DNA from: Actinoallomurus purpureus
GTDB taxonomy: Bacteria > Actinomycetota > Actinomycetes > Streptosporangiales > Streptosporangiaceae
Assembly (NCBI RefSeq): GCF_024055795.1
Contig: NZ_JAMXMY010000001.1
Coordinates: 124,001 to 188,000, forward strand
DNA: 64,000 bases
Reading direction: 5' to 3'
The notes under the pieces are model-generated. The model was not told the DNA's origin, searched no databases, and saw only the letters and a list, made by a program, of their open reading frames with translations. The position numbers were made by a program, and so were the translations under genes. Every line of letters begins with the position of its first letter. Within the stretch, counting starts at the first letter, position 1. Below are positions 33,925-56,183 of this stretch, piece after piece.

Positions 33925-34668
33925 CTACTTGGCCGGTGGTGGACGCAGCGTCGTGAGTCCTCCGTCGATGGTGATGGCGGAACCGGTGAGGGACGCGGCG
34001 CCGGGGAGGGCGAGGAAGGCGATCGTCGCCGCCACCTCCTCGGGTCGTACGAGACGTCCGTGCGGCTGGCGGGCGTTGAGGGCGGCGCGCTCGGCTCCGG
34101 GGTCGTCGGCGGCGTCGAGCAGGCGCCCGACCCAGGGCGTGTCGGTGGTGCCGGGCAGGACCGCGTTGACTCGGATGTCCTCGGCGAGGAGGTCGGCGGA
34201 CATGGCGAGCGTCAGGGACAGCACCGCGCCTTTGGTCGCGCTGTAGAGGGCCCTGTTGGGCAGGCCGGTCGTCGCGACGACGGAGGAGGTGTTGACGATC
34301 GCCGCCGACGGGGAGCGGCGCAACGCCGGCAGGGCGGCGCGGGTGACGCGGACGAGCCCGACGACGTTGACGTCGAACACGCGGTGCCATTCGTCGTCGG
34401 GATTGGTCTCGATGGTGCCGGTGGCACCGATGCCGGCGTTGTTGACGAGGATGTCGAGCCCGTCGAGCTCACTGATCAAGGTCGCGGTCGCGCGGCGAAC
34501 GGCGGCGTCGTCGGTGAGGTCGGCGAGGGCGAACGGCGTGCCGCCGCCCGGCGGTGCGTTGACGTCCAATACGGCGACCCGCACGCCGTGCTCGGTGAGC
34601 TCGGCGACGGTGGCCGCGCCGATGCCGGACGCGCCGCCGGTCACGATCGCCTTGAGTGGTGCAGCCAC
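33925..34668 (-). CDS. SDR oxidoreductase, probable 2-keto-3-deoxy-L-fuconate 4-dehydrogenase
   Basis: A 247-residue classical SDR: TGGASGIG cofactor loop, NNAG, and catalytic S-Y-K in NTSSVV and YSATK. The GTG at 34668 has AGGAGG 4 bases upstream. In the oxidative L-fucose (and L-rhamnose) pathways an SDR oxidises the 2-keto-3-deoxy acid to a 2,4-diketo acid, which an FAHD hydrolase cleaves. The FAHD gene, an acid-sugar dehydratase, lactonase and aldose dehydrogenase are all nearby, so this step is the best assignment. It could instead be the aldose dehydrogenase. It is divergent from the GntR gene with a shared operator. Confidence 0.8.
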   Translation of the reverse strand: MAAPLKAIVTGGASGIGAATVAELTEHGVRVAVLDVNAPPGGGTPFALADLTDDAAVRRATATLISELDGLDILVNNAGIGATGTIETNPDDEWHRVFDVNVVGLVRVTRAALPALRRSPSAAIVNTSSVVATTGLPNRALYSATKGAVLSLTLAMSADLLAEDIRVNAVLPGTTDTPWVGRLLDAADDPGAERAALNARQPHGRLVRPEEVAATIAFLALPGAASLTGSAITIDGGLTTLRPPPAK

Positions 34669-34680
34669 GTGCCCTCCTGG

Positions 34681-34701
34681 ATTGTCAGACGTGTAATCAT
34701 G
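34681..34701. promoter_or_regulatory. GntR-type operator, site 1 (TGTCNGAC)
   Basis: ATTGTCAGACGTGTAATCAT lies in the 38-base gap between the divergent SDR and gntR genes. It matches the site at 38711-38731 at 18 of the first 21 positions. The core TGTCAGAC is a near-palindrome like those of FCD-type GntR repressors. It lies so close to both starts that binding would silence both. Confidence 0.65.
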
Positions 34702-34706
34702 TCGTC

Positions 34707-35363
34707 ATGTCTCGATCGGGTCTTTCGACGGTCACGGTGGTCGACGCGCTGGTCGAGGCACTGCGGGGGCAGATCCTCGACGGGCAGTGGCCTCCGGCGG
34801 CGCCGGTCGCCGAGGTGGAGGTGGCGCGGCGTTTCCAGGTGTCGCGGCCGACGGCGAAAGCAGCGGTGCGCACGCTGGTGTTCGAGGGCCTGCTTCGGCA
34901 GGACTCGCACCATGCGGCCGTTGTTCCATCCCTCTCCGCGCAGGACATCGAGGATCTGTACTTCGTCCGCATTCCGCTGGAGCTGGCGATGGTCGAGCGC
35001 CTCAGCCAGGCGACCGGTGTCCGACTGGACGACGCCGAGAACGCGATCGGTGCATTGGAGAGGTTGCCCGATGACGCGGTGACCAGCTCGTTCGTGGCCG
35101 CGGACCTGGGGTTCCACCGTGCGTTGGCCGCGGCGACCGGCAGCTGGCGCCTCGAACGCTCCTACAACGCGCTGGCGGGGGAGGTTCACCTGTGCATGAT
35201 GCAGACGCGGCAGGCCCTCGGTCGTACGCGGATCGCCAGCGAGCATCGCCAGATCCTCCAGGCGATCCGTCGTGGGGACGGGCCCGGCGCGGTGGAGGCC
35301 GCCCGGCGGCACCTGGCCGGAGCACGGGATGCGCTGCTGACGATGGCGGACCGGACGGCCTGA
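34707..35363 (+). CDS. GntR-family regulator with FCD sensor domain
   Basis: A 218-residue protein: N-terminal winged HTH (VAEVEVARRFQVSRPTAKAAVRTLVFEGLL) and an alpha-helical FCD effector domain (about 85-218) with metal-ligand-like His in DLGFHRALAA and SEHRQILQAI. FCD regulators usually sense organic or sugar acids. The ATG at 34707 starts the HTH region; an upstream GTG (34656) overlaps the SDR start. There is no clear ribosome binding site, so a leaderless transcript is possible. It probably controls the L-fucose-type genes through TGTCNGAC sites, with a fuconate or keto-acid ligand. Confidence 0.92.
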   Translation: MSRSGLSTVTVVDALVEALRGQILDGQWPPAAPVAEVEVARRFQVSRPTAKAAVRTLVFEGLLRQDSHHAAVVPSLSAQDIEDLYFVRIPLELAMVERLSQATGVRLDDAENAIGALERLPDDAVTSSFVAADLGFHRALAAATGSWRLERSYNALAGEVHLCMMQTRQALGRTRIASEHRQILQAIRRGDGPGAVEAARRHLAGARDALLTMADRTA

Positions 35364-35434
35364 GGAAGCACTCGACTCCGGCGGCGCGGCGGGGTGCACG
35401 TGTCCGGTCAGCGTCGCATGCTGCGTTCGGAGCA

Positions 35435-36262
35435 TCAGGCCTGCCGAAAGTGCTGGCGCTGCCGGCCGAGACCGTCGATCTCCAGTTCGACGACGTCGTC
35501 CGCCTTCAGGTAGTCGGCGGTGGCCGATCCCATCGCGACGCCGGCCGGCGTTCCGGTGTTGATGAGGTCGCCCGGCCGCAGGACCATGAACTGGCTGAGG
35601 TACCAGACGAGATGGTCGACCCCGAAGATCATGTCGGCGGTGGTGCCGTCCTGGCGCAGTTCGCCGTTCACCCACAGCCTGAGACCGAGATCCTGCGGAT
35701 CGGCGACCTCGTCCGCGCTGAGTATCCATGGGCCCAGCGGATTGAAGGTCTCGCAGTTCTTACCCTTGTCCCACTGGCCACCGCGTTCGAGCTGGAATTC
35801 CCGCTCCGACACGTCGTTGCTGATCGCGTACCCGGCGATGCAGGCGCGGGCCTGCTCGACCGAGTCGAGGTAGCGCGCGGTGGTGCCGATGACGACCGCG
35901 AGCTCCACCTCCCAGTCGGTCTTCTTCGAACCGCGAGGAATCAGCACTTCATCGTCGGGACCGACGACGGTGTCCGCCGTCTTGAGGAAGACGATCGGCT
36001 CCTCGGGTGGGGTGGCGCCGGTCTCGCGCGCGTGGTCGGCGTAGTTGAGCCCGATGCAGATGATCTTCCCGATCCGACCGAGCGGAGGGCCGAACCGCCC
36101 CGGCTCGACGACCGGCAGTGCGTCGACGTCGAGCCGTTCCGCGGAGCTGATGAGCTCGAGGTCGATGGTGTCGGTGAGCGGCGTCAGATCGCGCCAGCGG
36201 CCGTCGGATCCGGACACGATGGGCCGCTCGGCTCCCGGCGCACCGGTACGCGCGAATCTCAT
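35435..36262 (-). CDS. FAHD-family hydrolase, probable 2,4-diketo-3-deoxy-L-fuconate hydrolase
   Basis: A 275-residue fumarylacetoacetate hydrolase-family protein: GKIICIGLNYADHARETG, IVFLKTADTVVGPDDE, metal-binding DWEVELAVVIG and C-terminal GDLINTGTPAGVAMG. In oxidative L-fucose catabolism such an enzyme splits the 2,4-diketo acid into pyruvate and L-lactate. The ATG lies in an ATGA overlap with the stop of the upstream iron-sulfur protein gene, so translation is coupled. The next gene downstream is the convergent gntR. The dehydratase, SDR and lactonase in the same island support the assignment. Confidence 0.88.
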   Translation of the reverse strand: MRFARTGAPGAERPIVSGSDGRWRDLTPLTDTIDLELISSAERLDVDALPVVEPGRFGPPLGRIGKIICIGLNYADHARETGATPPEEPIVFLKTADTVVGPDDEVLIPRGSKKTDWEVELAVVIGTTARYLDSVEQARACIAGYAISNDVSEREFQLERGGQWDKGKNCETFNPLGPWILSADEVADPQDLGLRLWVNGELRQDGTTADMIFGVDHLVWYLSQFMVLRPGDLINTGTPAGVAMGSATADYLKADDVVELEIDGLGRQRQHFRQA

Positions 36263-37317
36263 GATGAGTGTGGTCCTTTCGTCGAGAGGGCGAGGAACTC
36301 GGTCAGGTGCACCGCGCGGACACGCGAACGGTGCCGGCGCAGCGCCTGGCGAAGCTGGCGCAGGCAACCGGGGTTGACCGCGACCACCATGTCGACGCCG
36401 GCGGCCTCGATCTCGGCCACCTTGGCCTTCGCCAGGGTCCGCGATTCGCGTGGGCGGACCAGTGAGTACGTGCCGGCGGCGCCGCAGCAGGTGGCCGCCG
36501 AGGGCAGCTCGACATAGTCGGCGACGCTCTGCAGCAGTCGTCGCGGTTCGCGCCACACGCCGAGGCCGTTGCGAAGGTGACAGGAGTCCTGCAACGTCAC
36601 CCGGGCGGGCCGGCCGTCGATCAGGACCGGCTGGAACCGCTGGTCCTGGACGTATTCGGAGAACTCCCGTACCCGCTCCCGCCCGATCACCGAGGCGAGA
36701 TGGGCGGCGCATCCGCCCGAGGTGGTGACGATGGTGCCGGGCAGGTCGTCGCCGAGGCGGCGGGCCATCGCCGCGCCCCGTTCGGGTTCTCCGTTGTGCG
36801 CGTGCAGCGCGCCGCAGCAGCCCTGGTCCGGATCGGCCGCGAGGCCCGGTGCCAAGGTCAGCGCGGCACGGCTGACCCGCGGGAACATCGTCCGCTCCAC
36901 GCAGCCGAGCATCAGCTGATCGGCATCGTCGGCCTTCCGGCGGCCGGCGCGCCGGAGGATCCCGGCGAGCCGGTGGGCCGGGCGCAGCGTCACCAGCAGG
37001 ACGAGGGCGCGCACGATCAGCGGACGGCGGCGTCCCTGCCATTGCGCGCCGCGCCACTCTTCGAGCAGTTGGCCGTACTCGACACCGGCGGGACAGACCG
37101 GCTCACAGGCGCGGCAGCCGAGGCAGAGGGACGCCTGCTCGGCCAGGGTGGGATCGTCGAGCTCGAGCCGCCCGGCGTCGAGCGCTCGCATGAGGGTGAT
37201 CCGGCCGCGGGGTGAGGAGGCCTCGTCACCGGTCATGGCGTAGGTGGGGCACGCCGGGAGGCAGAACCCGCAGGAGATGCAGCGGCTGAGCCGGTCGGGG
37301 TCGAAGAGATCGGCCAC
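36259..37317 (-). CDS. GlcF-like iron-sulfur oxidoreductase subunit
   Basis: A 352-residue protein with two ferredoxin-type 4Fe-4S motifs, CISCGFCLPACP (about 14-25) and CLGCRACEPVCP (about 65-76). Two CCG (heterodisulfide reductase-like) domains follow, marked GCCGALHAHNG, SCHLRNG and TCCGAAGTYSL. This is the electron-transfer partner of FAD-linked glycolate/lactate oxidases. The GTG start directly abuts the GlcD-like stop (TAAGTG), and its own stop overlaps the FAHD start. It probably passes electrons from lactate (the FAHD product) to quinone at the membrane. Confidence 0.9.
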   Translation of the reverse strand: MADLFDPDRLSRCISCGFCLPACPTYAMTGDEASSPRGRITLMRALDAGRLELDDPTLAEQASLCLGCRACEPVCPAGVEYGQLLEEWRGAQWQGRRRPLIVRALVLLVTLRPAHRLAGILRRAGRRKADDADQLMLGCVERTMFPRVSRAALTLAPGLAADPDQGCCGALHAHNGEPERGAAMARRLGDDLPGTIVTTSGGCAAHLASVIGRERVREFSEYVQDQRFQPVLIDGRPARVTLQDSCHLRNGLGVWREPRRLLQSVADYVELPSAATCCGAAGTYSLVRPRESRTLAKAKVAEIEAAGVDMVVAVNPGCLRQLRQALRRHRSRVRAVHLTEFLALSTKGPHSS

Positions 37318-38712
37318 TTATGATCCCAGCTTTCCGGGGTTGAGGATGCCCGCCGGATCGAAGGCGGACTTGATCCGGCGCAGCAGGGCCGTCTGCGCCG
37401 GTCCGAGCCGTTCGGCCAGATAGGGCAGCTTTGCCGCGCCGACGCCGTGCTCGCCGGTGATCGTCCCGCCCAGGGCGATCGCGGTTCGGAAGATCTCTCC
37501 GAAGGCGCGTTCGGCGCGGGCGATGGCCTCGGTGTCCTCGGCGGAGGGCAGTACGCACGTCGGGTGCAGGTTGCCGTCACCAGCATGCCCGAACGTCGCG
37601 ATCACGACGTCGTGCCGGCGCGCGATGTCGTCGATGCGGGCGACCATCTCGGCGAGATGGGGCCGGGGCACGCTCGCGTCCTCGAGGATCGTCAGGGAGC
37701 CGAGCCGGGACAGCGCCGGAAGGGTGCAGCGGCGGGCGGCCAGCAGCGACTCGGCCTCGGAGACGCCACCGATCTCGACGGACAGGGCACCGCTGTCGAG
37801 ACACGCCTGTCGCATCCGCGCGAGGCTCGCGGCCACCTGATCGTCCTCGCCGTCGTCGCCGAAGAGCAGCATCGCGCCGGCCGTCGCGTGCAGCCCGAGG
37901 TGGGCGTAGGCGTCGACGGCGTCCATGCACCGTCGGTCGAGGAACTCCAGCGTGGCGGGCACGACGCCGCGCGCGATGATCTCGGCGACGGCACGCCCCG
38001 CCGCCTCGAGGTCGGCGAAGTAGGCCAGTCCGGTTCCCGTCGTCGCGGGCGCGGGCAGCAGGGCGACGGTGGCCTCGGTGATGATGCCGAGGGTTCCCTC
38101 CGAGCCCGTGAGCAGCCGGGTCAGGTCGTATCCCGCGACGTCCTTCCACAACCGGCCACCGGTGGCGACGATCTCACCGGTTCCGAGCACCGCGGTCAGA
38201 CCGAGGACGTAATTCCGGGTGACGCCGTACTTCAGCCCGCGCAGTCCGCCGGCGCAGGTGGCGATGTTGCCGCCGATCGTCGAGACGGTGTGGCTGCCCG
38301 GATCGGGTGGATAGAACAGCCCGTGCTCGCCTGCCGCCTTCGCCAGCGCGGCGGTCGTCACGCCGGGCTGGACCCGGGCCAGTAGCTCCGCCGGGGCGAT
38401 CTCGTCGATGCGCCGCATCCGGGCCGTGGTCAGGACGATGCCGCCCTGCTGGGCCGAGGTGGCGGCGCACAGGTTCGACCCGGAGCCTCGCGGAATGATC
38501 GGGAGGCGATGCTCGACGGCGATGCGAACGATCTCGGCGATCTGCTGCGCGTCGTCGGGCTCGACGATCGCCTGTGGGTAGGCGTGGAACAGCGGCGTCG
38601 CATCCCGCGCGTACGCCTCGAGCACCCCGGGGTCGGTGCGCACATTTTCGTTGCCGACGACCGAGCGGAGCTTCCGCAGGACATTGGTGGAGAGAGACCG
38701 ATCGCTGAACAT
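37318..38712 (-). CDS. GlcD-like FAD-linked oxidase (glycolate/lactate type)
   Basis: A 464-residue FAD-binding PCMH-type oxidase: the FAD loop IPRGSGSNLCAATSAQQGG (about 65-83), TIGGNIATCAGG, DLTRLLTGSEGTLGI, FGHAGDGNLHPT and C-terminal GEHGVGAAKLPYL. The family oxidises 2-hydroxy acids. With the GlcF-like partner and FAHD in one operon it would oxidise the lactate made from the deoxysugar. Start at 38712 (ATG within the GntR-type operator) or 38730; neither has a ribosome binding site, so the mRNA is probably leaderless. It is divergent from the LysR gene. Confidence 0.88.
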   Translation of the reverse strand: MFSDRSLSTNVLRKLRSVVGNENVRTDPGVLEAYARDATPLFHAYPQAIVEPDDAQQIAEIVRIAVEHRLPIIPRGSGSNLCAATSAQQGGIVLTTARMRRIDEIAPAELLARVQPGVTTAALAKAAGEHGLFYPPDPGSHTVSTIGGNIATCAGGLRGLKYGVTRNYVLGLTAVLGTGEIVATGGRLWKDVAGYDLTRLLTGSEGTLGIITEATVALLPAPATTGTGLAYFADLEAAGRAVAEIIARGVVPATLEFLDRRCMDAVDAYAHLGLHATAGAMLLFGDDGEDDQVAASLARMRQACLDSGALSVEIGGVSEAESLLAARRCTLPALSRLGSLTILEDASVPRPHLAEMVARIDDIARRHDVVIATFGHAGDGNLHPTCVLPSAEDTEAIARAERAFGEIFRTAIALGGTITGEHGVGAAKLPYLAERLGPAQTALLRRIKSAFDPAGILNPGKLGS

Positions 38713-38731
38713 TGTCTGACATGTAACCATG
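38711..38731. promoter_or_regulatory. GntR-type operator, site 2 (TGTCNGAC)
   Basis: ATTGTCTGACATGTAACCAT contains the perfect palindrome TGTCTGACA and matches the site between the SDR and gntR genes. It overlaps the GlcD-like start codon, placing the GlcD-GlcF-FAHD operon under the same GntR regulator as the SDR. Confidence 0.65.
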
Positions 38732-38827
38732 GCAGCAGGGCGTCGTCCAGGCCAGGATCGATCGACGCGGACGCGGACCCCGTCGTCCTCCCACCCGCGA
38801 TTAGGGTGAACAGCAGTGGAGGTGCCC

Positions 38828-39757
38828 ATGACCGACCTGGAGCTCGCCTGGCTGCGCTCCTGGCTGGAGGTCGTCGACTCCGGCGGCTTCGCCCGAGCGG
38901 CTGTGCGCGTCCACCTGTCGCAACCCCGCATCTCGGCGCATGTCGCGAGCCTGGAGAAGGCACTGGGATGCCCGCTGATCGATCGGCGTACCCGTCCGCT
39001 GACCTTGACCGACGAGGGCAAGCGGCTGCTTCCCCGGGCGCGGTCGATCATCGCTGCCGTCGATGACACGGTGTCGGACATGCGGTCGACGACGACGGTC
39101 GCGGGCCGGCTGACGATCGCGAGTTTCGCGAGCGCGAGCTCGGAGTTCCTGGCGCCGGTACTGAAGCGGTTGCGTGAGGAGAACCCGCTGATCGAGGTGG
39201 GAGTTCTCGACGGCGACGTGCAGCTGATCGAGTCGACGCTGTCGGTACGGCAGGCCGCGGTCGCGATCCGGCCGTACCGGCCGGAACCCGCGGATCACGC
39301 TCTGGTCCGGCGGCCGCTGTGGCGGGAGCCGTTCGTGGTCCTGGCTCCCCTCGGCCATCCCGTCCTGGCGCAGGAGTCCGTCGGCCTCGAAGAGATCGCC
39401 CAGTACCCCGTCATCACGATCGGTGATCCGCTGGACACGCCCATCCTGGGGTACGAGGCGTCGCTGGCCATGCACTCCAGCCGGCTGGAGCCCAAGGTCG
39501 GGATCGTCTCGCACCAGCCGACCACGCTGACCGCGATGGTGCGCGCAGGGCTCGGCCTCGGGCTGGTCAACCTGCTCGCGGCGACCATGGCTCGCCGTGA
39601 CGGGCTCGAGACACGCCTGGTCGGCGACCCCCACCTGTACCGCGACGTGGGCCTGTGGTGGCACTCCGAACGGCCGGTGAGCCGGGTCGCGCAGGCGTTC
39701 ATCGATCTCGCCCTGGCCGGCGAGCTCCCTCCCGGCACGCTTCCCATCCCCGACTGA
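38828..39757 (+). CDS. LysR-family transcriptional regulator
   Basis: A 309-residue LysR regulator. The N-terminal winged HTH (SGGFARAAVRVHLSQPRISAHVASLEKALG) and the coinducer-binding domain (about 95-300) are complete. The ATG at 38828 is preferred over the GTG at 38816 because GGAGG sits 5 bases before it. It is divergent from the GlcD operon and 179 bases upstream of, and co-directional with, the dehydratase/transporter operon. It may activate either set, with a pathway acid as coinducer. Confidence 0.9.
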   Translation: MTDLELAWLRSWLEVVDSGGFARAAVRVHLSQPRISAHVASLEKALGCPLIDRRTRPLTLTDEGKRLLPRARSIIAAVDDTVSDMRSTTTVAGRLTIASFASASSEFLAPVLKRLREENPLIEVGVLDGDVQLIESTLSVRQAAVAIRPYRPEPADHALVRRPLWREPFVVLAPLGHPVLAQESVGLEEIAQYPVITIGDPLDTPILGYEASLAMHSSRLEPKVGIVSHQPTTLTAMVRAGLGLGLVNLLAATMARRDGLETRLVGDPHLYRDVGLWWHSERPVSRVAQAFIDLALAGELPPGTLPIPD

Positions 39758-39936
39758 GCGTGCCGAGTTCTGCCCCTGCCTGAGGCGGCGTCGGCCACCG
39801 CCGCCCGGCGTTATTCGTGTTCCGAATTCCCTGTATCCACAAGTCGTCGTTGTTACGGGCGCGTTTCCGGTGGCTGAATGTGTGCCGAACTCGAACTCTC
39901 AGGTCGGCGTTCGCCGCAGTTCAGGAAGGATACGGA

Positions 39937-41202
39937 ATGGGACTAGACGACTCTGCCGACGCGTTCGGGGTGCTCTCGCCGCCGTTGGTGGACCTGCCGC
40001 GCGGTGACGCCGGCGCGGTCATCACGTCCGTGGAGACCTATGCGCTGGCCGTGCCCCTCAAACAGCCGATCGCCGATTCCACGGCGTCGCTACGGTCCTG
40101 GATCGTCCCCGTGGTCGAGATCCGCACGGCCGACGGACGTGTCGGAACGGGCATCTCCGGGGTGCACTGCGCTCCAGAGTTGCTGTGCGATGTCATCAGC
40201 CGCTACTACGCGCCCTCGTTGCTGGGAGCCGCCTCCGAGGACATTCTCGGGACCTGGAAGCGGTTGTACTGGCTGCCCACCCACTGGCTCGGCCGGGCCG
40301 GCGCGGTGCACATGGCACTGGCGATGGTCGACATCGCGCTGTGGGATCTCGCGGCGCAACGGGCCGGGGTACCGCTGTGGCGGCTGCTGGGTGGCAGCGC
40401 CGAGGCGATCGAGACCTACAACACCGACGGAGGCTGGCTGAACTACCCGGTCGACACACTGGTGCGGGATCTGACCTCGCTGATCGACCGCGGCTGGCGT
40501 CGGGTGAAGATCAAGGTCGGCAAGCCCGACTGGCGGGAGGACGCCCATCGGGTACGGGCGGTCCGCCGGGCGATCGGCGACGGCATCACCCTGATGTGCG
40601 ACGCCAACCAGCGCTGGGATCTGTCGACGGCCGGCCGGCTCCTGCCGGCCCTGGAAGAGGTCGGCATGGACTGGATCGAAGAACCCCTGCACGCCGACGC
40701 GCTGGACGGGCACGCCCGGCTGCAACGGGCCACGCGTGTCGACATCGCCGCCGGGGAGAGCCTGTACTCCTATCACCACTTCGCCAGTTTCATCGCGGCC
40801 GACGCGATTCGCGTGGTGCAGGTGGATGTGACCCGCGTCGGCGGTGTCACCGAATGGCTTCAGGTCGCCCACCACGCGGCCGCGCACGGGCTGCGGATCG
40901 CCCCGCATGCCGGCGACATGATGCAGGTGCACCAGCATCTCGTCGGTACGGCGCTGAGCGACGTGCCGCCGCTGGTCGAGTTCATCCCGTGGACCCAGGA
41001 CGCGTTCGAGCAACGCAGCGTGGTCAACGAGGGCTACCTGGAACGTCCGCAACTTCCCGGCGCGTCGACGGCCGTCCATCGTGACGCCCGCCGCGACTGG
41101 CAGATCCGCGGTGTCGGCCACGTCACCGATCAGGGCGGGACCGTTGCCAAGCCGCGTCGGTCACGGACCACCGAAACCCGTAACGAAGGAGAAGACCAGT
41201 GA
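39937..41202 (+). CDS. Enolase-superfamily acid-sugar dehydratase (mandelate racemase subgroup), probable L-fuconate dehydratase
   Basis: A 421-residue enolase-superfamily enzyme. The mandelate-racemase active site is intact: KxK with K191 and K193 (VKIKVG), metal ligands D222 (CDANQ), E248 (WIEEP) and E274 (AGESL), and the D297 (QVDVTR) to H324 (APHAGD) dyad. Such enzymes dehydrate aldonic acids to 2-keto-3-deoxy acids. With the neighbouring aldose dehydrogenase and lactonase, L-fuconate is the likely substrate; L-rhamnonate, L-galactonate or D-arabinonate are alternatives. The ATG follows AGGAAGGA. The stop overlaps the next gene (GTGA). It heads the transporter operon. Confidence 0.9.
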   Translation: MGLDDSADAFGVLSPPLVDLPRGDAGAVITSVETYALAVPLKQPIADSTASLRSWIVPVVEIRTADGRVGTGISGVHCAPELLCDVISRYYAPSLLGAASEDILGTWKRLYWLPTHWLGRAGAVHMALAMVDIALWDLAAQRAGVPLWRLLGGSAEAIETYNTDGGWLNYPVDTLVRDLTSLIDRGWRRVKIKVGKPDWREDAHRVRAVRRAIGDGITLMCDANQRWDLSTAGRLLPALEEVGMDWIEEPLHADALDGHARLQRATRVDIAAGESLYSYHHFASFIAADAIRVVQVDVTRVGGVTEWLQVAHHAAAHGLRIAPHAGDMMQVHQHLVGTALSDVPPLVEFIPWTQDAFEQRSVVNEGYLERPQLPGASTAVHRDARRDWQIRGVGHVTDQGGTVAKPRRSRTTETRNEGEDQ

Positions 41203-42251
41203 AGCGCAGGACCGGTATCGCTTTTCTGGCCGCGGCACTGGCCACCTCCCTGCTCGCCGGCGCGTGCGGCGGCAGCGGGGGCTCCACGGGCGGCGGGTCC
41301 GGTGGTGGCAAGAAGCTGGTGATCGGCGACATCCTCTTCAACACCGACGCCTACCAGATCGCCCAGCAGAAGCAGATGCAGAAGTACGCCGACGGTCTGG
41401 GCGTCAAGATCATCTTCGAGAATCAGCAGGGGCAGGGCACCAAGGGGCCGGATCTGATGCAGAACCTGCTCACCCGCGGCGTCGACGGCATCATCATGCA
41501 GCCGGCCGACGCGAACGTCGCCGTTCCGCTCGTCAGGCAGGCGCAGGCCCAGAAGGTTCCGGTACTCGGCTGGGCGATCCCGTTCGGGGCCGGAGTGACC
41601 GCCCCGTACGTCGGGCTGGCGGAGAAGGCGGAGACCGAGGCCGCGGGCAAGGCCGCTGCCCAATACGTCAAGCGGAACTTCCCGGGACGGCCCGTCAAGG
41701 TGTTGATCGTCACGATCACCGGCGTCTCCGTTTGCTCGAACGACCGCATGGGGCCCTTCGAGAAGGGGGTCAAGTCCGTCGCGCCGGACGCCCAGATCAC
41801 GACCGTCAACGGCGCGGGCAACCGGAACACGGCGGTGACCGTCACCGAGGACGCCCTGCAGCGCGACAAGGGCTACACCATCGCCACCGGCTGCAACTCC
41901 GACATGGCGATGGGGGCCCTGCAAGCCTTCAAATCCGCGGGGCTGGGCGGCGCGACCGGCAAGAAGCCCGACCACACGTACTTCTACAGCATCAACGGAA
42001 CCGACGAGGAACTGCGCGCACTCACCGATCCGACGTCACCGCTGATGGCCGACCTCGGGCTGACTCCCAAAGAGGTGGCCCAGACCTTGATCGACACCCT
42101 GCGCCAGATGATCAGCGGCAAGATCCCGCCGCGCGGCGGCTACACCGCGAACGTGCCCGACAAGCCGCTCGGACCCGACTGCACCGCCGCGAACGACTTC
42201 AACAGGTCCGAGTACTTCGCGACGGCGAACCTGCCTTGCGCGGGCAAATGA
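41199..42251 (+). CDS. Sugar ABC transporter substrate-binding lipoprotein (RbsB/CUT2 type)
   Basis: A 350-residue periplasmic-binding-protein type 1 (monosaccharide) protein. The signal ends in the lipobox LLAGAC with the Cys at about residue 23, followed by a Gly/Ser linker. The core begins KKLVIGDILFNTDAYQIAQQ and contains GVDGIIMQPADANVAVPLV. It starts at a GTGA overlap with the dehydratase, so the sugar importer and the catabolic enzyme are translationally coupled. The ligand is probably free L-fucose or a related monosaccharide. Confidence 0.93.
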   Translation: MKRRTGIAFLAAALATSLLAGACGGSGGSTGGGSGGGKKLVIGDILFNTDAYQIAQQKQMQKYADGLGVKIIFENQQGQGTKGPDLMQNLLTRGVDGIIMQPADANVAVPLVRQAQAQKVPVLGWAIPFGAGVTAPYVGLAEKAETEAAGKAAAQYVKRNFPGRPVKVLIVTITGVSVCSNDRMGPFEKGVKSVAPDAQITTVNGAGNRNTAVTVTEDALQRDKGYTIATGCNSDMAMGALQAFKSAGLGGATGKKPDHTYFYSINGTDEELRALTDPTSPLMADLGLTPKEVAQTLIDTLRQMISGKIPPRGGYTANVPDKPLGPDCTAANDFNRSEYFATANLPCAGK

Positions 42252-42316
42252 GCCGGCACGGAGCACCCCGGGCGACGACGCGCCCACAGGCGCATGAGCA
42301 ACAGGGAGGAGCCACG

Positions 42317-43822
42317 ATGGACACGGCGAGCGGCACCGACCTGCTCGTGATCGACGAGCTGACCAAGAGCTACGACGGCGTGCAGGCACTGCGAGGTGCG
42401 AACCTCGTGGTCGGCCGCGGCGAGATCCACGCGCTCCTGGGCGAGAACGGAGCCGGTAAGTCCACCCTGATCAAGACCCTCGCCGGCGCCGTCAGGCCGG
42501 ACTCGGGAACGATCACGTTCGACGGAGCGGCCGTCGAGTTCGGCTCGCGCGCCGACTCGATGAACCGCGGCATCAGCGTCATCTTCCAGCACGCCAACCT
42601 GGTCCCGCAGCTGACCGTCGCGGAGAACGTCGTACTCGGCAACGAGCAACGGCTGTTCGGCTATCTGCGCGACGGCCGGCAGCGAGAGGCGACCCACGAG
42701 GTCCTGGCTCGTCTGGGCATGCGCATCGACCTGAACCGGACCGCCGCGAGCCTGCGCGCCGGCGAACGGCAGCTCGTCGAGATCGCCCGAGCGCTGCTGC
42801 AGGAGACGAAGCTGCTGATCCTCGACGAGCCCACCGCCTCGCTGGGAACCGAAGAGGTGGAGCACCTGCATCAGGTACTGCTCGAGCTACGCGACAGCGG
42901 CATCGGCATCATCTACGTCTCGCACCGGCTGGAAGAGGTGCTCTCCGTCAGCGACCGGCTGACCGTCCTGCGCGACGGCCGAACCGTCGGCACCAGAATC
43001 GCCGCCGAGACCAGCACCGCCGACGTCATCCAGCTGATGATCGGCCGCGACGCCTCTCACGTCTTCCGCAAGACCTCCGACGCACGCGAGGAGGTCGTGC
43101 TCAGGGTACGGGACCTGACCACCCCGACCGGGCTCCAGGGAGTCGGCTTCGACCTGCACGCCGGCGAGATCCTCGGCGTCTACGGACTGCTCGGCTCCGG
43201 CCGTACCGAACTCGCCCGCGCCGTCTACGGGGCCGACCCGATCGGCAGCGGCCTGATCGAGACACCCACCGCGCCCACCGGCCGCAAGCGGAATCCCTAT
43301 CGAGCCGCCCGCGCGGGCATCGGCCTCGTGCCGGAGGAACGCACCACCCAGGCGATGTTCCCGCTGCTGTCGATCACGGACAACATGAGCTCGGGGCGGC
43401 CGTGGCTCTACACCAGGTGGGGGGTCATCCGTAACCGGCGGCGCCGGCACCTCGTCGAGGAGATGGCCCGGCGGGTTCGGCTCAAGGCGGCATCGGCGGG
43501 CCAGAGCATCGCGGCGCTCTCCGGCGGAAACCAGCAGAAGGTCGTTCTCGGCCGATGGATGCTCGGCAACTCCAGGCTGCTGATCCTCGACGATCCCACC
43601 GTCGGAGTCGACATCGGCGCCAAGGAGGAGATCTACCGTCTCATCTCGGAGCTCACCGCCGATGGCACGGCGGTCCTGCTGCTGTCCTCCGAAGTGCCCG
43701 AGGTACTCGGCCTGTCCGATCGCGTCATCGTCCTCTTCCACGGTGCGGTCGCGGCCACCTACACCAGCGATGACGTGTCCGAACAAGCGTTGCTACGCGC
43801 CGCGCACGGGGAGGCGGCATGA
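42317..43822 (+). CDS. Sugar ABC transporter ATP-binding protein (RbsA/CUT2 type)
   Basis: A 501-residue double ATPase. Domain 1 has Walker A GENGAGKST (42-50), a divergent signature LRAGERQLVEIARAL and Walker B LLILDEPTA. Domain 2 has a degenerate Walker A (GLLGSGRTEL) but a canonical LSGGNQQKV signature and LLILDDPT, the normal asymmetric pattern of CUT2 ATPases. The ATG at 42317 follows GGGAGGA. It overlaps the permease start (ATGA). It is the only sugar-import ATPase in the window. Confidence 0.95.
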   Translation: MDTASGTDLLVIDELTKSYDGVQALRGANLVVGRGEIHALLGENGAGKSTLIKTLAGAVRPDSGTITFDGAAVEFGSRADSMNRGISVIFQHANLVPQLTVAENVVLGNEQRLFGYLRDGRQREATHEVLARLGMRIDLNRTAASLRAGERQLVEIARALLQETKLLILDEPTASLGTEEVEHLHQVLLELRDSGIGIIYVSHRLEEVLSVSDRLTVLRDGRTVGTRIAAETSTADVIQLMIGRDASHVFRKTSDAREEVVLRVRDLTTPTGLQGVGFDLHAGEILGVYGLLGSGRTELARAVYGADPIGSGLIETPTAPTGRKRNPYRAARAGIGLVPEERTTQAMFPLLSITDNMSSGRPWLYTRWGVIRNRRRRHLVEEMARRVRLKAASAGQSIAALSGGNQQKVVLGRWMLGNSRLLILDDPTVGVDIGAKEEIYRLISELTADGTAVLLLSSEVPEVLGLSDRVIVLFHGAVAATYTSDDVSEQALLRAAHGEAA

Positions 43823-44895
43823 CCGGTCTGGAACGCACCGCCGCCGACGTCGTCCCGGCGCGAAGGTCCTCGATCGGGTCCGGGCTGGGGATCTGGTTCG
43901 CCCGGCCGACGAGCAAGACGCTGGTCATGAACCTCGGTATCCTCATCGCCCTGAGCGTGTGGCTGTCGTTCGCGACCAGCCAGTTCACGACGTCCCAGAA
44001 CATCACCAACGTCCTCGGCCAGGTCTCCTTCATCGGCATATCCGCGTGCCTGGTCACTCCCGTCATGGTCGCCGGCGGCCTGGACCTGTCCGTCGGCTCC
44101 ATCATCGCCGTCGCCGGCGTCACCGCCGCCAAGTTCGTCGCCGATGCCCACTGGCCCCTCGGATGGGCGTTCCTCATGGGTGCCCTGGCCGGCGGCGTCA
44201 TCGGAGCCCTCAACGCCTTCCTCATCGTCGGGATGAAGATCAACCCAGTGATCACGACTCTCGGCACCATGTACATCGGCCGCGGCTTGGCGAACGTCGT
44301 CGCCGGCGGGTCCCCGGTCACCGGCGTGCCGTTCTCCTTCAACGACCTGGCGACCTCGGACGTGGGACCGATCCCGGTCCCCGTCGTGATCTTCGCTGTG
44401 ATCGCCCTCGTCATGATCTTCGTCGAGCGCAAGACCATCCTCGGCCGGTGGACCGTCGCCAGCGGCGGCAATCAGGAGGCCGCACGCCTCTCGGGCATCC
44501 CGATCAACCGCACCCGAGTCACCCTCTACATCCTTTCCGGCCTCGCCGCAGGTGTCGCGGGCATCCTCTTGAACTCCCGCATCGCCACCGGCGACCCCAA
44601 CTCCGGCACCGGCTTCGAGTTCGACGTCATCGTCGCCGTGGTCCTCGGCGGTACCGCCATCACCGGAGGACAGGGAAAGATCATCGGTTCGATCGTCGGC
44701 GTCCTGATCGTGGGCGTCCTGAACAACGGCCTCAACCTGCTGGGCGTGTCGACGTTCTATCAGTACATCGTCCAAGGCGGCGTGCTCATCTTCGCCGTCG
44801 GCGTCGACGAGGTGTTCCGGCATACCTGGGGCAACATCCTGAGACGGCAGCGTTTCGAAAGGCGCTCCCAGCGCCAAGCCCACGGCAGCAACTAG
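43819..44895 (+). CDS. Sugar ABC transporter permease (RbsC/CUT2 type)
   Basis: A 358-residue hydrophobic permease with about 8-10 membrane segments and the family motif MVAGGLDLSVGSIIAVAG. Also visible are GTMYIGRGLANVVAGG and VLGGTAITGGQGKIIGSIVG. It begins in an ATGA overlap with the ATPase gene and completes the binding-protein/ATPase/permease set. AAGGAGG after it precedes the NTF2-like gene 18 bases on, so transcription continues. Confidence 0.95.
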   Translation: MTGLERTAADVVPARRSSIGSGLGIWFARPTSKTLVMNLGILIALSVWLSFATSQFTTSQNITNVLGQVSFIGISACLVTPVMVAGGLDLSVGSIIAVAGVTAAKFVADAHWPLGWAFLMGALAGGVIGALNAFLIVGMKINPVITTLGTMYIGRGLANVVAGGSPVTGVPFSFNDLATSDVGPIPVPVVIFAVIALVMIFVERKTILGRWTVASGGNQEAARLSGIPINRTRVTLYILSGLAAGVAGILLNSRIATGDPNSGTGFEFDVIVAVVLGGTAITGGQGKIIGSIVGVLIVGVLNNGLNLLGVSTFYQYIVQGGVLIFAVGVDEVFRHTWGNILRRQRFERRSQRQAHGSN

Positions 44896-44913
44896 CGAAG
44901 GAGGAACTCGCCC

Positions 44914-45291
44914 ATGCCCGCCACCCCACGACAAGTGTCCGAGTCCTACTGGCGCGCCGAAGAAAGCCGGGACATCGCGCGTATCCTGTCCCACTTCCAT
45001 GAGGACGCCGTCTTCCATCCCGTATCCGGTCCGCTCAACGGCCACACCGAGATCCGCACCTTCTACGACGCGATGGGCGACACCTTCCCCGGCCTGGAAG
45101 TCACCATCACCCACGAGATCGGCTCCGGCGACGAGGCGTGCCTCGAATGGGAAGCGGTCCTCATCGACCACGACGGCGCGCGGATCCCGATCCGAGGCGT
45201 CAATGTCGTGCGCGTACGCGACGGCAGATTCGACTCGGTCCGCGCCTACTTCGACCCCACGCAGTTCCCGACGCCAGGAGGCCGCCGATGA
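44914..45291 (+). CDS. NTF2/SnoaL-like small protein of unknown function
   Basis: A 125-residue single-domain protein of the SnoaL-like/NTF2 fold: YWRAEESRDIARILSHFHEDAVFHP, GHTEIRTFYDAM and C-terminal VRVRDGRFDSVRAYFD. The family includes isomerases, hydrolases and binding proteins, so fold alone does not give a role. It sits between the monosaccharide importer and the aldose dehydrogenase, with a strong AAGGAGG site and an ATGA overlap into the dehydrogenase. That implies coordinated expression and an early pathway step, perhaps mutarotation or handling of the sugar or lactone. No signal peptide. Confidence 0.85.
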   Translation: MPATPRQVSESYWRAEESRDIARILSHFHEDAVFHPVSGPLNGHTEIRTFYDAMGDTFPGLEVTITHEIGSGDEACLEWEAVLIDHDGARIPIRGVNVVRVRDGRFDSVRAYFDPTQFPTPGGRR

Positions 45292-46292
45292 TCGACCCGC
45301 ACACGACCGTACAGATCGGCGATACCGGGCTGCGCATTCCACGGATCGGCCTCGGAACCGCCGCACTCGGCAACTTCCTGCGCCCCATCAGCGACGAAGA
45401 CGCCACGGCGGTCATCGCACAGGCGCTGGAACGCGGCATCCGTTACCTCGACACCGCCCCGCTGTACGGACACGGCCTCGCCGAACAGCGCGTCCGAGCG
45501 GCGATCGCCGACAATCCTCGAGACGAGCTCGTGATCTCCACCAAGGTCGGCAGGCTCCTGCGCGAAGGCGCTCCCCGTGATGAGAGCCAATACTTCGACG
45601 GGGAGCCCTTCTACAAGGACGTCCCGTCCGCCGCCCCCGTATGGGACTTCAGCGAGAACGGCATCCGCCAGTCCGTAGAAGAGAGCATGCGGCGGGTCGG
45701 GGTGGATCGGTTCGACATCCTCCACCTGCACGACCCCGACGAGCACTTCGAGCAGGCGAGCACCACCGCGTACAAGGCGCTGAGCGAGCTCCGGGCCGAC
45801 GGCAGGGTTCAGGCGATCGGCGCGGGCATGAACCGCACCCCGGTCCTGACGGAACTCGTCCGCGAGTGCGACCTCGACGTCATCCTCCTCGCCGGCCGAT
45901 ACACGTTGCTCGACCAGAGCGGGATGGACGAGCTTCTTCCCATGTGCGCCCGGCGCACCACCTCGGTCGTCGTCGGGGGAGTCTTCAACAGCGGCATACT
46001 CATCGACCCGGAGCCGGGCACGACCTTCGACTACGTCCCCGCATCCCCGGAGGTCATCGACCGCGCGCGCCGCATCCGCGGCATCTGCGACCGTCACGAC
46101 GTCCCGATGGCCGCCGCCGCCGTGCAGTTCCCGCTTGCCCACCCGCAGGTGTGCAGCGTGCTCCTCGGGCCCAGATCACTCGACGAACTCGACATGGATC
46201 TCGGGCTGCTGTCCGTCGACATCCCCTCGGCCCTCTGGGCCGACCTTCGCGCGGCGGACCTGATCCGACCCGACGCACCCTGCCCAGAGTAG
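45288..46292 (+). CDS. Aldo/keto reductase, probable L-fucose (D-threo-aldose) 1-dehydrogenase
   Basis: A 334-residue AKR with the catalytic tetrad D55, Y60, K86 and H148 in place. Features such as VVVGGVFNSGIL are shared with D-threo-aldose 1-dehydrogenase/L-fucose dehydrogenase. It would oxidise L-fucose to the lactone with NAD(P)+, the first oxidative step. The start at 45288 is in an ATGA overlap with the NTF2-like gene and has AGGAGG 7 bases upstream. The lactonase gene follows 13 bases later. Related pyridoxal dehydrogenases share the sequence type, but the context argues for a sugar. Confidence 0.88.
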   Translation: MIDPHTTVQIGDTGLRIPRIGLGTAALGNFLRPISDEDATAVIAQALERGIRYLDTAPLYGHGLAEQRVRAAIADNPRDELVISTKVGRLLREGAPRDESQYFDGEPFYKDVPSAAPVWDFSENGIRQSVEESMRRVGVDRFDILHLHDPDEHFEQASTTAYKALSELRADGRVQAIGAGMNRTPVLTELVRECDLDVILLAGRYTLLDQSGMDELLPMCARRTTSVVVGGVFNSGILIDPEPGTTFDYVPASPEVIDRARRIRGICDRHDVPMAAAAVQFPLAHPQVCSVLLGPRSLDELDMDLGLLSVDIPSALWADLRAADLIRPDAPCPE

Positions 46293-46305
46293 AGAGGCTC
46301 ACCCG

Positions 46306-47178
46306 ATGGACGATCGCACCGAGCGTATCGACGCCCACCACCACTTCTGGGATCCGCGCCGCTACACCTACCCGTGGATGGCCGGCCCGGAGCTGGACCC
46401 CGTACGGAGAGCGTTCGGGCCGAGTGACATGCAGCCCCTGGTCGATGCCGCCGACATCACCGGCACCATTCTCGTCCAGACCGTGTCGGACGAGAACGAG
46501 ACCCGGGAGTTCCTCCAGATCGCGGCCTCGACGCCGTTCGTCCGCGGAGTCGTCGGCTGGGTCGACCTCACCTCGCCGGCCGTGGGAGACGCCCTGGACG
46601 CCCTCCTCACCGGCGATGACGGCCGGTTCCTCGTCGGGATCCGCCATCAAGTACATGACGAGCCCGATCCGAACTGGTTGTGCCGTGACGACGTGCGCCG
46701 GGGCCTGCGAGCCGTGGCCGATCGTGGTCTCGGCTACGACCTTCTGGTACGTGCGCGGGAACTACCGGCGGCGGTCGAGACGGTCAGGGCGTTGCCGGAG
46801 CTGAACGTCGTCGTCGACCACATCGCCAAACCGACGATCGCCGCGGGCACTGACGAGCTGTGGGCCGAGTCGATGCCAGTTCTCGCGCAATGCCCCAACG
46901 TGATGGTGAAGCTCTCCGGCATGATCACTGAGGCGGATTGGAGCGCCTGGACCCCTGACGATCTCCGGCCGTTCGTCACTCGTATTCACCAGTGGTTCGG
47001 CGCGGACCGCCTCATGTTCGGATCCGACTGGCCCGTCTGCCTGCTCGCCGGTACGTACCAGTCCGTCATCGAGGGGCTGACCGCCGCCATCGGCACGTTG
47101 AGCGCGGCCGAGACCGCGGCGCTCTTCGGCGGCACGGCTCACGCCTTCTACCGTCTGGGGGACCGCCCCAAGGGCTGA
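46306..47178 (+). CDS. Amidohydrolase-family lactonase (cog3618 type), probable L-fucono-lactonase
   Basis: A 290-residue amidohydrolase-2 protein. The N-terminal metal motif IDAHHHFWD has His residues 11-13. The TIM barrel contains VDHIAKP and ends with the C-terminal MFGSDWPVC. Members of cog3618 include L-fucono-1,5-lactonase, L-rhamnono- and D-galactarolactonases. Placed directly after the aldose dehydrogenase, it should open the fuconolactone to L-fuconate for the dehydratase. AGAGAGG lies 7 bases before the ATG. It is the last gene of the operon; a decayed region follows. Confidence 0.9.
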   Translation: MDDRTERIDAHHHFWDPRRYTYPWMAGPELDPVRRAFGPSDMQPLVDAADITGTILVQTVSDENETREFLQIAASTPFVRGVVGWVDLTSPAVGDALDALLTGDDGRFLVGIRHQVHDEPDPNWLCRDDVRRGLRAVADRGLGYDLLVRARELPAAVETVRALPELNVVVDHIAKPTIAAGTDELWAESMPVLAQCPNVMVKLSGMITEADWSAWTPDDLRPFVTRIHQWFGADRLMFGSDWPVCLLAGTYQSVIEGLTAAIGTLSAAETAALFGGTAHAFYRLGDRPKG

Positions 47179-51274: not shown

Positions 51275-51394
51275 GGTCACGCCTCTCCCCGATGTGAAGC
51301 CGGATGTGGACTCATGCGGCGGACGGCCGCAGGGCGGCGCCCGGCGCGGTACGGCGCCTGTGGGGACGATGGCACCGTGCCGGGCGCCGTTGCG

Positions 51395-52753
51395 CTACTT
51401 CTTTGCCAGGAGCTGCTGGCTCTTCTGCGCCAACCCCGGGAAGACGTCGTCATTGCGCTGGTGGGAGAAGTACGCCTCGAGCTGCGGTTTGATCGCGGCC
51501 TCGATCGCGGCGCCGTTCGTGTGCACGACGTTCGGGTACAGCTCACCGCGCTTCATCATCTGGATGAACACCGACAGGTCCACGCCCTGGCCGGCGAGCG
51601 CCTGGGCCGAGGCGTCCATCGAGGCGGGGATCGACGGGAAGAACGTGCCGCTCTTGCCCGCCATCGTCTGGCAGGCATCCGAACCCATGTAGGAGACCCA
51701 CTTCCACGTCAGGTCGGGGTTCTTGGTGCCGGCCCAGATGTTGTTGCCGTTGGAGTTGCTCAGCACCTTCCGGGTCTTGCCATCGGGGCCGAGCACGGTC
51801 GGCGCGATGCCCACCTTGACCTTGGGCAGTTTGGCGAAGCTCGCCACGTTCCACGAGCCGGACGTCTCCATCGCGACCTTGCCGGAGCCGAGCAGGTCGA
51901 TGTCGCTGATGATGGCCTGGCCGTTCCCCGAGGTGAACTGGCCGAACTTCGGCTCGAAGCCGCGGTCCGCGAGGCTGCGGAAGTAGCCCATGCTCTTGAC
52001 GAACCGGGGGTCGTCATAGTTGAACCGCGTGGGCCAGTTGTCCTTGTCACTCATCTTCCAGCCGAGTGTGGAGACGAAGGAGCTCCAGGTCGTCTGCCCG
52101 ATGTAGTCGCCGGTGTTCAGCAGGCCCGTCCCGTACGTGGCGATGCGCGACTTGTCGAAGCCGGGCTGGTCGCCGCGCCTGCCCTTCGTGTCGACCGTCA
52201 GGTGCGCGGCCATCTTGTCGAACGCCCCGCCGTTGTCGGGGTTCCAGGTCAGCGATTCGACGTCTTTGGCGGTGTAGCCGGCCTTGGCCAGCATGTCCTT
52301 GTTGTAGTAGATGGCGGTCGCGGCCCAGTCCAGCGGGAGACCGTACTGTTTGCCGTCCGTGTACTTCCACGAGTTGACGCCGACCGAGAACCGGGACAGG
52401 TCGAAACGGTTCTTGGCGATGAAGTCGTCGAGCGGTTTCAGCTGTCCCTGGCTCGCGTACGTCGGGAAGTACTGCACGCTGTTCTGGAAGGCGTCGGGGG
52501 CGTTCCCGGAGACGAATCCAGAGGTCAGTTTCGTGAAGTAGTCCTGGACGTCATATTGGGAGATCTTCACCGTGACGCCGGGATTCGCCTTTTCGAACGT
52601 CGTGGCGCACGTCTGATACGCCTGGGCCTGCTTGTCGTCCCATGTCCACCAGTTGATGGTCTTCGCCCCGGAGGCGCCGCCACCACCGCTGCCGCAGCCG
52701 GCCGTCGCCAGCGCCACCGCCGCGGCGATCGCGAACAGATTCCGTATCCTCAT
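51395..52753 (-). CDS. Sugar ABC transporter substrate-binding lipoprotein
   Basis: A 452-residue family-1 solute-binding protein. The signal peptide ends at ALATAGC with the Cys at about residue 20. Core features include TINWWTWDDKQ, GLPLDWAATAIYYNKDML and SGKVAMETSGSWNV. It is unusual in lying downstream of both permease genes and the GH95 gene rather than first in the operon. AGGA lies three to four bases before the ATG. The ligand is inferred to be a fucosylated or galactosylated oligosaccharide. Confidence 0.93.
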   Translation of the reverse strand: MRIRNLFAIAAAVALATAGCGSGGGGASGAKTINWWTWDDKQAQAYQTCATTFEKANPGVTVKISQYDVQDYFTKLTSGFVSGNAPDAFQNSVQYFPTYASQGQLKPLDDFIAKNRFDLSRFSVGVNSWKYTDGKQYGLPLDWAATAIYYNKDMLAKAGYTAKDVESLTWNPDNGGAFDKMAAHLTVDTKGRRGDQPGFDKSRIATYGTGLLNTGDYIGQTTWSSFVSTLGWKMSDKDNWPTRFNYDDPRFVKSMGYFRSLADRGFEPKFGQFTSGNGQAIISDIDLLGSGKVAMETSGSWNVASFAKLPKVKVGIAPTVLGPDGKTRKVLSNSNGNNIWAGTKNPDLTWKWVSYMGSDACQTMAGKSGTFFPSIPASMDASAQALAGQGVDLSVFIQMMKRGELYPNVVHTNGAAIEAAIKPQLEAYFSHQRNDDVFPGLAQKSQQLLAKK

Positions 52754-52826
52754 TGTTCCTCGCTTCCCGCACGACCTGCGTGCGCGGTCATCTCCCCCGA
52801 CGTATCTGGGTCCCCGAGATCGGCGA

Positions 52827-56173: not shown

Positions 56174-56183
56174 ACCGGCCTCC

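Follow-up and report, generated by a model that had tools for sequence, protein, structure and literature searches.

Gene content of the locus and the predicted pathway

The stretch of DNA analysed here (the window) is 64 kb of contig C11 in the 9.25-Mb genome of a soil-type actinomycete. It carries a sugar-acid dehydratase of the mandelate racemase type together with genes for an aldo-keto reductase (AKR), a lactonase, a short-chain dehydrogenase/reductase (SDR), a FAHD hydrolase, a GlcD/GlcF-like pair, sugar importers and glycoside hydrolases (GH). The set resembles non-phosphorylative sugar pathways of the dehydrogenase/hydrolase kind (Route III), which have been demonstrated with L-fucose and with pentoses (PMC6336799, PMC11199699). 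A separate L-fucose-type cluster is present on contig C49 of the same genome. The window set appears, with a chance somewhat better than even, to represent a parallel second Route III pathway, whose substrate would be an aldose of L-galacto/D-arabino configuration other than L-fucose. This fucose-like sugar would probably be cut from polysaccharides. Gene identities were taken from Pfam and NCBIfam profile scans and gene starts were picked by eye from upstream sequence. The genes and candidate sites are as follows.

33925..34668, minus strand: SDR, predicted 2-keto-3-deoxy-aldonate 4-dehydrogenase with the L-KDFDH subfamily signature (Pfam adh_short_C2)
34681..34701, plus strand: candidate GntR operator copy 1, between SDR and GntR (21-bp pattern)
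34707..35363, plus strand: GntR/FCD regulator (Pfam FCD and GntR)
35435..36262, minus strand: FAHD hydrolase, predicted 2,4-diketo-3-deoxy-aldonate hydrolase (PF01557)
36259..37317, minus strand: GlcF-like iron-sulphur subunit (Pfam and NCBIfam scans)
37318..38712, minus strand: GlcD-like FAD subunit (TIGR00387)
38711..38731, plus strand: candidate GntR operator copy 2, at the GlcD start (21-bp pattern)
38828..39757, plus strand: LysR regulator (Pfam)
39937..41202, plus strand: mandelate-racemase-type sugar-acid dehydratase, DHT (Pfam MR_MLE_N and MR_MLE_C)
41199..42251, plus strand: CUT2 sugar-binding lipoprotein (PF13407)
42317..43822, plus strand: CUT2 ATPase (Pfam)
43819..44895, plus strand: CUT2 permease (PF02653)
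44914..45291, plus strand: SnoaL_2 (NTF2-fold) protein (PF12680)
45288..46292, plus strand: AKR, predicted aldose 1-dehydrogenase (PF00248)
46306..47178, plus strand: cog3618-type lactonase (Pfam Amidohydro_2)
49085..51280, minus strand: GH36, alpha-galactosidase-like (PF02065)
51395..52753, minus strand: CUT1 binding protein (profile scan)
52827..55268, minus strand: GH95, alpha-L-fucosidase or alpha-L-galactosidase (PF22124; start read from translation)
55265..56173, minus strand: first CUT1 permease (PF00528)
56184..57191, minus strand: second CUT1 permease (PF00528)

The enzymes, CUT2 importer and two regulators that a first-pass annotation had named in 33925-47178 are all intact in the Pfam and NCBIfam scans. 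The overlapping starts it claimed are also present, as four 4-nt overlaps with the starts chosen here (dehydratase/CUT2 binding protein, ATPase/permease, SnoaL_2/AKR and GlcF/FAHD). It described a 13-kb island; the named genes are there, but this extent is too small, the conserved neighbourhood running to ~57 kb. The SnoaL_2 gene, the GH36-CUT1-GH95 block (49085-57191) and a repeated 21-bp site had been missed.

The right-hand operon has the order dehydratase, CUT2 binding protein, ATPase, permease, SnoaL_2, AKR and lactonase, with three of the overlaps, and the left-hand operon (GlcD, GlcF, FAHD) has the fourth. The SDR and GntR/FCD genes are divergent and share one gap. A near-identical 21-bp site precedes SDR/GntR and GlcD. 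The 21-bp pattern, which was derived from the two copies themselves, gives 0 matches in 100 shuffles, and no third copy is found within the window at three or fewer mismatches. Because both places share this candidate site, the GntR regulator probably governs the SDR gene and the GlcD-GlcF-FAHD operon. The operon from dehydratase to lactonase probably responds to the LysR regulator; a LysR-type inverted repeat upstream of the dehydratase (position 39813) was not seen in the 15 relatives examined.

In the proposed pathway, the CUT1 importer would take in oligosaccharides, which GH95 and GH36 would trim, and the CUT2 importer would take up the free sugar. The AKR would oxidise C1 of the aldose and the cog3618-type enzyme would open the lactone. 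Loss of water at C2-C3, catalysed by the dehydratase, would yield a 2-keto-3-deoxy acid, which the SDR would oxidise at C4. The FAHD hydrolase would cleave the product to pyruvate and a 2-hydroxy acid, and GlcD/GlcF would oxidise the 2-hydroxy acid into the respiratory chain. The predicted set appears to fit the Route III order (aldose, lactone, acid, 2-keto-3-deoxy acid, 2,4-diketo acid, pyruvate plus hydroxy acid). A role of the SnoaL_2 protein as a mutarotase or in lactone handling is conceivable. It has no close solved structure (best E 0.002), and among the 32 homologous loci opened (described below) it has a homolog at two Actinacidiphila loci only.

Comparison with the L-fucose-type cluster of the same genome

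The window dehydratase retains K191xK193, D222, E248, E274, D297 and H324, and these residues are invariant in all 13 aligned sequences. The KxK motif, three metal-binding acids and a His-Asp pair have catalytic roles in the enolase superfamily. With these motifs and the MR_MLE_N and MR_MLE_C domains the protein belongs to the mandelate racemase subgroup, and the active site is intact, as the first-pass annotation had said. It is, however, only 33% identical to the L-fuconate dehydratase (FucD) encoded on C49. Matched to the Xanthomonas L-fuconate dehydratase it scores 135 bits versus 622 bits for the C49 FucD, and it lies outside the FucD family of canonical L-fucose Route III clusters.

The best NCBIfam match is L-talarate/galactarate dehydratase (NF047820, 273 bits, below the cut-off of 500). 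The fold is common to that enzyme (PDB 2pp0), but the active-site loop differs: PHAGDMMQVHQHL in the window versus PHF--AMEVHLHL in 2pp0. It should be noted that the dehydratase, lactonase, FAHD hydrolase and GlcD-like subunit all score under the NCBIfam cut-offs, so that the names of these models are leads only. The closest solved structures, 4h19 and 3tj4, are of the Agrobacterium tumefaciens enolase EFI-502087, which is titled merely enolase with the molecule name mandelate racemase; the titles, as displayed, name no sugar-acid function. The ligand of 4h19 is, we presume, D-ribonohydroxamate. A literature search on EFI-502087, 3tj4, 4h19 and the ligand returned unrelated papers only.

The closest PDB entry to the window AKR is L-galactose dehydrogenase (8scc, 102 bits). 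The AKR and lactonase are 51% and 46.5% identical to their C49 counterparts. In trees made by a quick method with no bootstrap, the 11 AKRs adjacent to dehydratases of the window type, that of the window included, make up a single clade that excludes the 34 FucD-adjacent AKRs (SH-aLRT 100). The 11 lactonases, counted in the same way, are likewise a single clade that excludes the 20 FucD-adjacent ones (SH-aLRT 100). Five AKR columns display a letter common to all 11, which is found in 0-3 of the 34 others. Neither window enzyme belongs to the FucD-adjacent clades of the canonical L-fucose cluster.

The C49 cluster has FAHD, FucD, SDR, a CUT2 importer, AKR, lactonase and a LutABC-like set, which is expected to be what conversion of L-fucose to pyruvate and L-lactate would need, judging from the genes. 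In the LutABC-like set, LutB scores 440.8 bits (cut-off 444.8), LutA was assigned by position and weak matches, and LutC by its LUD domain. A genome search found no GlcD on C49, where the stretch compared starts 640 bases before FucD. The importers of the two clusters are dissimilar (CUT2 ATPase 38% and binding protein 28% identity); the best models for the window CUT2 ATPase and permease are AraG and AraH, both below cut-offs. A third, paralogous cluster in this genome (L018, C4:4000-22000) combines a talarate-dehydratase-like enzyme with a lactonase, an SDR, a GntR regulator and a CUT2 importer; the genes called in that interval include neither a FAHD nor a hydroxy-acid oxidase.

The enzymes of the late steps are closer to those of C49. 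The SDRs are 65% identical, and the FAHD hydrolases 75% over 210 aa, the C49 copy being truncated by the edge of the stretch compared. Dehydration erases the C2/C3 configuration, so another sugar could enter similar late steps, and for this reason the likeness is compatible with a sugar other than L-fucose. The best NCBIfam model for the window FAHD is 2,4-didehydro-3-deoxy-L-rhamnonate hydrolase (NF053535, 313 bits, cut-off 500), and the closest PDB entry is 8gsr, a 2,4-diketo-3-deoxy-L-rhamnonate hydrolase structure.

A four-residue R-T-R-R signature defines type 1 L-2-keto-3-deoxyfuconate 4-dehydrogenases, including the SDR of the Route III L-fucose pathway (accessible text of PMC11199699). 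It is present in the window SDR and in 34/34 other aligned SDRs; two of the four positions were placed with the aid of a human BDH2 sequence. The first-pass annotation had left L-rhamnose, L-galactose and D-arabinose as alternatives to L-fucose. Of these, L-rhamnose is less likely because the SDR bears this arginine signature. L-galactose and D-arabinose are the better candidates. The residue at the C6-methyl contact of the SDR was also considered as a sugar marker. It is Leu in the window and at L027 and Met in 29/29 FucD-locus SDRs, but Leu is listed among the residues recorded at this position (PMC11199699, accessible text) and 3/5 dehydratase-locus SDRs keep Met; the contact is suggestive only.

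The complete non-phosphorylative deoxyhexose pathway annotated at first holds as a Route III gene set in an actinomycete, but L-fucose as its sugar is unsupported, though also not refuted, in view of the genome's own C49 cluster, the 33% identity to FucD, the separate AKR and lactonase clades and the GlcD/GlcF pair. A second L-fucose pathway is a somewhat unlikely explanation. Here the window would serve fucosylated oligosaccharides through CUT1 and GH95 and C49 would serve free L-fucose through CUT2, with pyruvate and L-lactate as products. The likeness of the SDR and FAHD pairs would agree with this. The lactonases also speak for L-fucose and against the reading preferred here: on the L-fucono-1,5-lactonase model (NF052480, cut-off 400) the window enzyme scores 210 bits and that of C49 187, both below the cut-off, and the standing of L-fucose was raised slightly because the window lactonase outscores the other. 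An alpha-1,3-glucanase and a GH92 enzyme in the window would be in keeping with fungal glycans, and L-fucose occurs in some of these. On the other hand, for one sugar in one cell it would be redundant to have a dehydratase that is not orthologous, an AKR and a lactonase of separate clades and another importer, and GlcD/GlcF sits where C49 has the LutABC-like set. Substrates of GlcD-type enzymes are glycolate or D-2-hydroxy acids rather than L-lactate, which they are not known to use.

Neighbourhoods of the dehydratase in other actinomycetes

Among 149 relatives searched at E<=1e-100, the window dehydratase was found in one, the own genome. Close homologs, sharing 64-92% identity with it and at least 72% in every case except one, occur in 23 named genomes, which belong to Actinacidiphila, Nonomuraea, Leifsonia, Diaminobutyricibacter, Microbacterium, Kribbella, Streptomyces and (Par)actinoplanes. 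All 23 also carry FucD (E<=1e-180), against 76/296 across the class at the looser limit of E<=1e-100, where the own genome is included. That all 23 carry FucD would suit a second L-fucose pathway as well. Of 75 loci found, 32 were opened (L020-L051). The dehydratase set has 25 loci (L020-L040, L047, L048, L049 and L051), with L048 59% identical and L049 and L051 partial matches; the window is counted apart, and the counts omit L041-L046 and L050 (48-53%) and L052-L094 (27-35%). These were set against 40 FucD loci; most of the stretches compared span ~20 kb, and contig ends truncate a few.

GH95 is present at 17/25 dehydratase loci and at 0/40 FucD loci, and the same numbers hold for a CUT1 binding protein; the window CUT1 binding protein is 50-69% identical to those at the 17 loci. 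A LysR gene is near the dehydratase at 18/25 loci versus 0/40, and a UxaA-type dehydratase is found at 8/25 versus 0/40. Conversely, the C49-type CUT2 ATPase is found at 0/25 dehydratase loci and 18/40 FucD loci. Both loci could be compared within 21 of the 23 genomes. In 14 of them GH95 accompanies the dehydratase alone, in 7 it accompanies neither gene, and in none does it accompany FucD alone. The corresponding numbers (dehydratase only/FucD only) are 16/0 for the CUT1 binding protein, 7/0 for the UxaA-type dehydratase and 4/0 for a fused GlcD-F. The GH95 linkage favours L-fucose or L-galactose as the sugar.

The window GH95 is assigned with confidence to its family (PF22124, 475 bits, cut-off 27; closest PDB 2rdy). 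The window GH36 has full-length homologs (61-63%) at 3 dehydratase loci, and by family GH36 is at 4/25 and GH27 at 9/25 of these loci, both at 0/40 FucD loci. A D-galacto-series sugar (D-fucose, L-arabinose or D-galactose) freed by GH36/GH27 and leading to D-lactate, glycolate or D-glycerate would account for this; all three products are plausible for GlcD/GlcF, and the AraG/AraH matches would agree. However, the SDR and FAHD hydrolase resemble enzymes for the opposite C4 configuration and the GH95 linkage exceeds that of GH36 or GH27, so this explanation is very unlikely.

The GlcD-like subunit of the window scores 449 bits with TIGR00387, under the cut-off of 568. A GlcD/F-type oxidase is present at 5/26 dehydratase loci, counting the split pair of the window, versus 0/41 FucD loci, counting C49 (Fisher p=0.007, uncorrected for relatedness; three of the five loci are from one lineage, two Leifsonia and one Diaminobutyricibacter). 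A fused GlcD-F accounts for 4/25 versus 0/40; at L022, L033 and L039 its gene immediately follows that of the dehydratase. LutABC versus GlcD/F was rejected as a general L-lactate marker, since 0/40 FucD loci carry either and only C49 has the LutABC-like set.

The GlcD/F linkage favours glycolate, and with it D-arabinose, or a D-hydroxy acid. D-arabinose, or a pentose of that series, could pass through Route III to pyruvate and glycolate, which GlcD/GlcF would oxidise. According to the accessible text of PMC6336799, an SDR-hydrolase couple of H. huttiense carried out the Route III step to glycolate in vitro from the D-arabinose-derived 2-keto-3-deoxy acid, and Paraburkholderia mimosarum has separate D-arabinose (Route II) and L-fucose (Route III) clusters, each induced by its own sugar only. 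P. mimosarum is thus the precedent for a cell that has two pathways of this sort. The UxaA-type dehydratases, a family which includes a D-arabinonate dehydratase, and the Leu at the C6-methyl contact would also agree, although Leu is among the residues listed there. Against D-arabinose, a glcD gene adjoining malate synthase on contig C50 could already serve glycolate. Release of D-arabinose is not a known activity of GH95 or GH36. This sugar is an unlikely candidate, ranking below L-fucose.

UxaA/GarD-type and enolase-type dehydratases lie near each other at L023, L033, L039 and other loci, giving two unrelated dehydratases per neighbourhood. A further dehydratase of the window type, sharing 78% identity with that of the window, is encoded at both Actinacidiphila loci (L020 3467-4669; L029 from 2915). 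The neighbourhoods of the distant homologs L041-L043, L045, L046 and L048 point to no clear sugar; L046 adjoins a FucI-family isomerase and a ribulokinase.

The candidate sugar and related systems

L-galactose ranks first among the sugars, as a tentative choice, followed by L-fucose and then D-arabinose; the other sugars together are the least likely. Taken together, L-galactose and D-arabinose are more likely than L-fucose. A dedicated oxidative L-galactose (or D-arabinose) pathway may exist beside the L-fucose pathway in soil actinomycetes, marked by a dehydratase of the 4h19/3tj4 subgroup. The linked GH95s would be alpha-L-galactosidases and not L-fucosidases. The importer, AKR, lactonase and dehydratase would have acquired another specificity, with the later steps, beyond the loss of the C2 and C3 stereocentres, kept. 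That the genome has a separate full L-fucose-type pathway argues against L-fucose as the sugar of the window.

Several points weigh against the reading preferred here. No one sugar fits all clues: L-fucose explains neither GlcD/F nor the duplication, D-arabinose yields glycolate but leaves GH95 unexplained, and L-galactose would give L-glycerate as L-fucose gives L-lactate, neither of which is a usual GlcD-type substrate. One bacterial AKR of such kind accepts D-arabinose and L-fucose about equally, and L-galactose also (PMC6336799, accessible text); therefore separate AKR clades need not mean separate sugars. The SDR and FAHD trees do not cleanly separate window-type and FucD loci (two changes each). 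The window FAHD clusters with FucD-adjacent FAHDs, and those of the fused GlcD-F loci L020, L022, L033 and L039 form their own clade. The full enzyme set is rare elsewhere: by bit thresholds AKR and lactonase are each at 10/25 dehydratase loci, FAHD at 5/25 and SDR at 4/25, with AKR or lactonase over threshold at 0/8 Streptomyces dehydratase loci. The class-wide baseline for FucD is unmatched for genome size or habitat, and the dehydratase-bearing genomes are non-independent (eight Streptomyces, four Kribbella).

The GH95 evidence bears on this as well. The window GH95 is ~34% identical to most GH95s of the other loci (26-37% overall), and GH95 seems to recur as a family and not as one orthologous gene; the fucosidase search covered GH95, with GH29 and similar families outside it. 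L-fucosidases make up most of the GH95 family, in which L-galactosidase activity has been reported for two members (PMC10154630, accessible text). The window enzyme has Thr at the position of residue 370 of BACOVA_03438, a proposed specificity site (Thr versus His). This test for L-galactose versus L-fucose was dropped, as Thr is also found in the L-fucose-specific XacAfc95 (PMC8245568, accessible text).

The Route III L-fucose pathway (FucA/B/C/F/G; PMC11199699, PMC6336799, accessible parts) matches the window in predicted reaction order and in the lactonase, dehydratase superfamily, SDR and FAHD families. The window differs in having no FucD ortholog, an attached GlcD/F, other importers, and GH95 with GH36. 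The bacterial D-arabinose clusters share with it an AKR (COG0667) in P. mimosarum and SDR and FAHD in H. huttiense, and the GlcD/F of the window could take the glycolate formed by the latter; their D-arabinonate dehydratase is, however, of the UxaA/GarD type, and that of the window is of the enolase superfamily (PMC6336799, accessible text). In Bacteroides ovatus, PUL-XylL (GH31, GH97 and a GH95 alpha-L-galactosidase; PMC4491172, accessible text) has GH31, an alpha-galactosidase family and GH95 together, as in the window, but the window has GH36 in place of GH97 and its GH31, at 28.5 kb, sits in another gene block. No pathway of such kind in soil actinomycetes was among the literature matches listed, whose coverage left out most subscription papers. 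The point of interest is a dehydratase clade tied to GH95 and CUT1, a tie absent from 40/40 FucD loci.

If the sugar is other than L-fucose, the actinomycete clade of dehydratase, AKR and lactonase needs a new name (the nearest models say L-fucose or galactarate), EFI-502087, whose structure is solved, acquires a function that can be tested, and the soil GH95 set would be a place to look for alpha-L-galactosidases. Should the sugar prove to be L-fucose, one cell has two non-orthologous oxidative pathways for one sugar.

Window positions 1-33000 are a glycan-degradation zone with alpha-amylase family, GH3, GH92, alpha-1,3-glucanase and GH31 genes and a CUT1 binding protein, as well as two ROK regulators, a GH39 match under its cut-off and further permeases named by eye. 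Two further genes, at 57790-59456, encode an SMP-30/gluconolactonase-like protein (~40%) and a second SDR (~37%), the identities being to genes present at several of the Streptomyces dehydratase loci. The two are possibly an alternative pair for the first steps. Positions 60118-62187 display a single open frame of 689 aa with an MFS transporter and an isochorismatase domain, a putative fusion.

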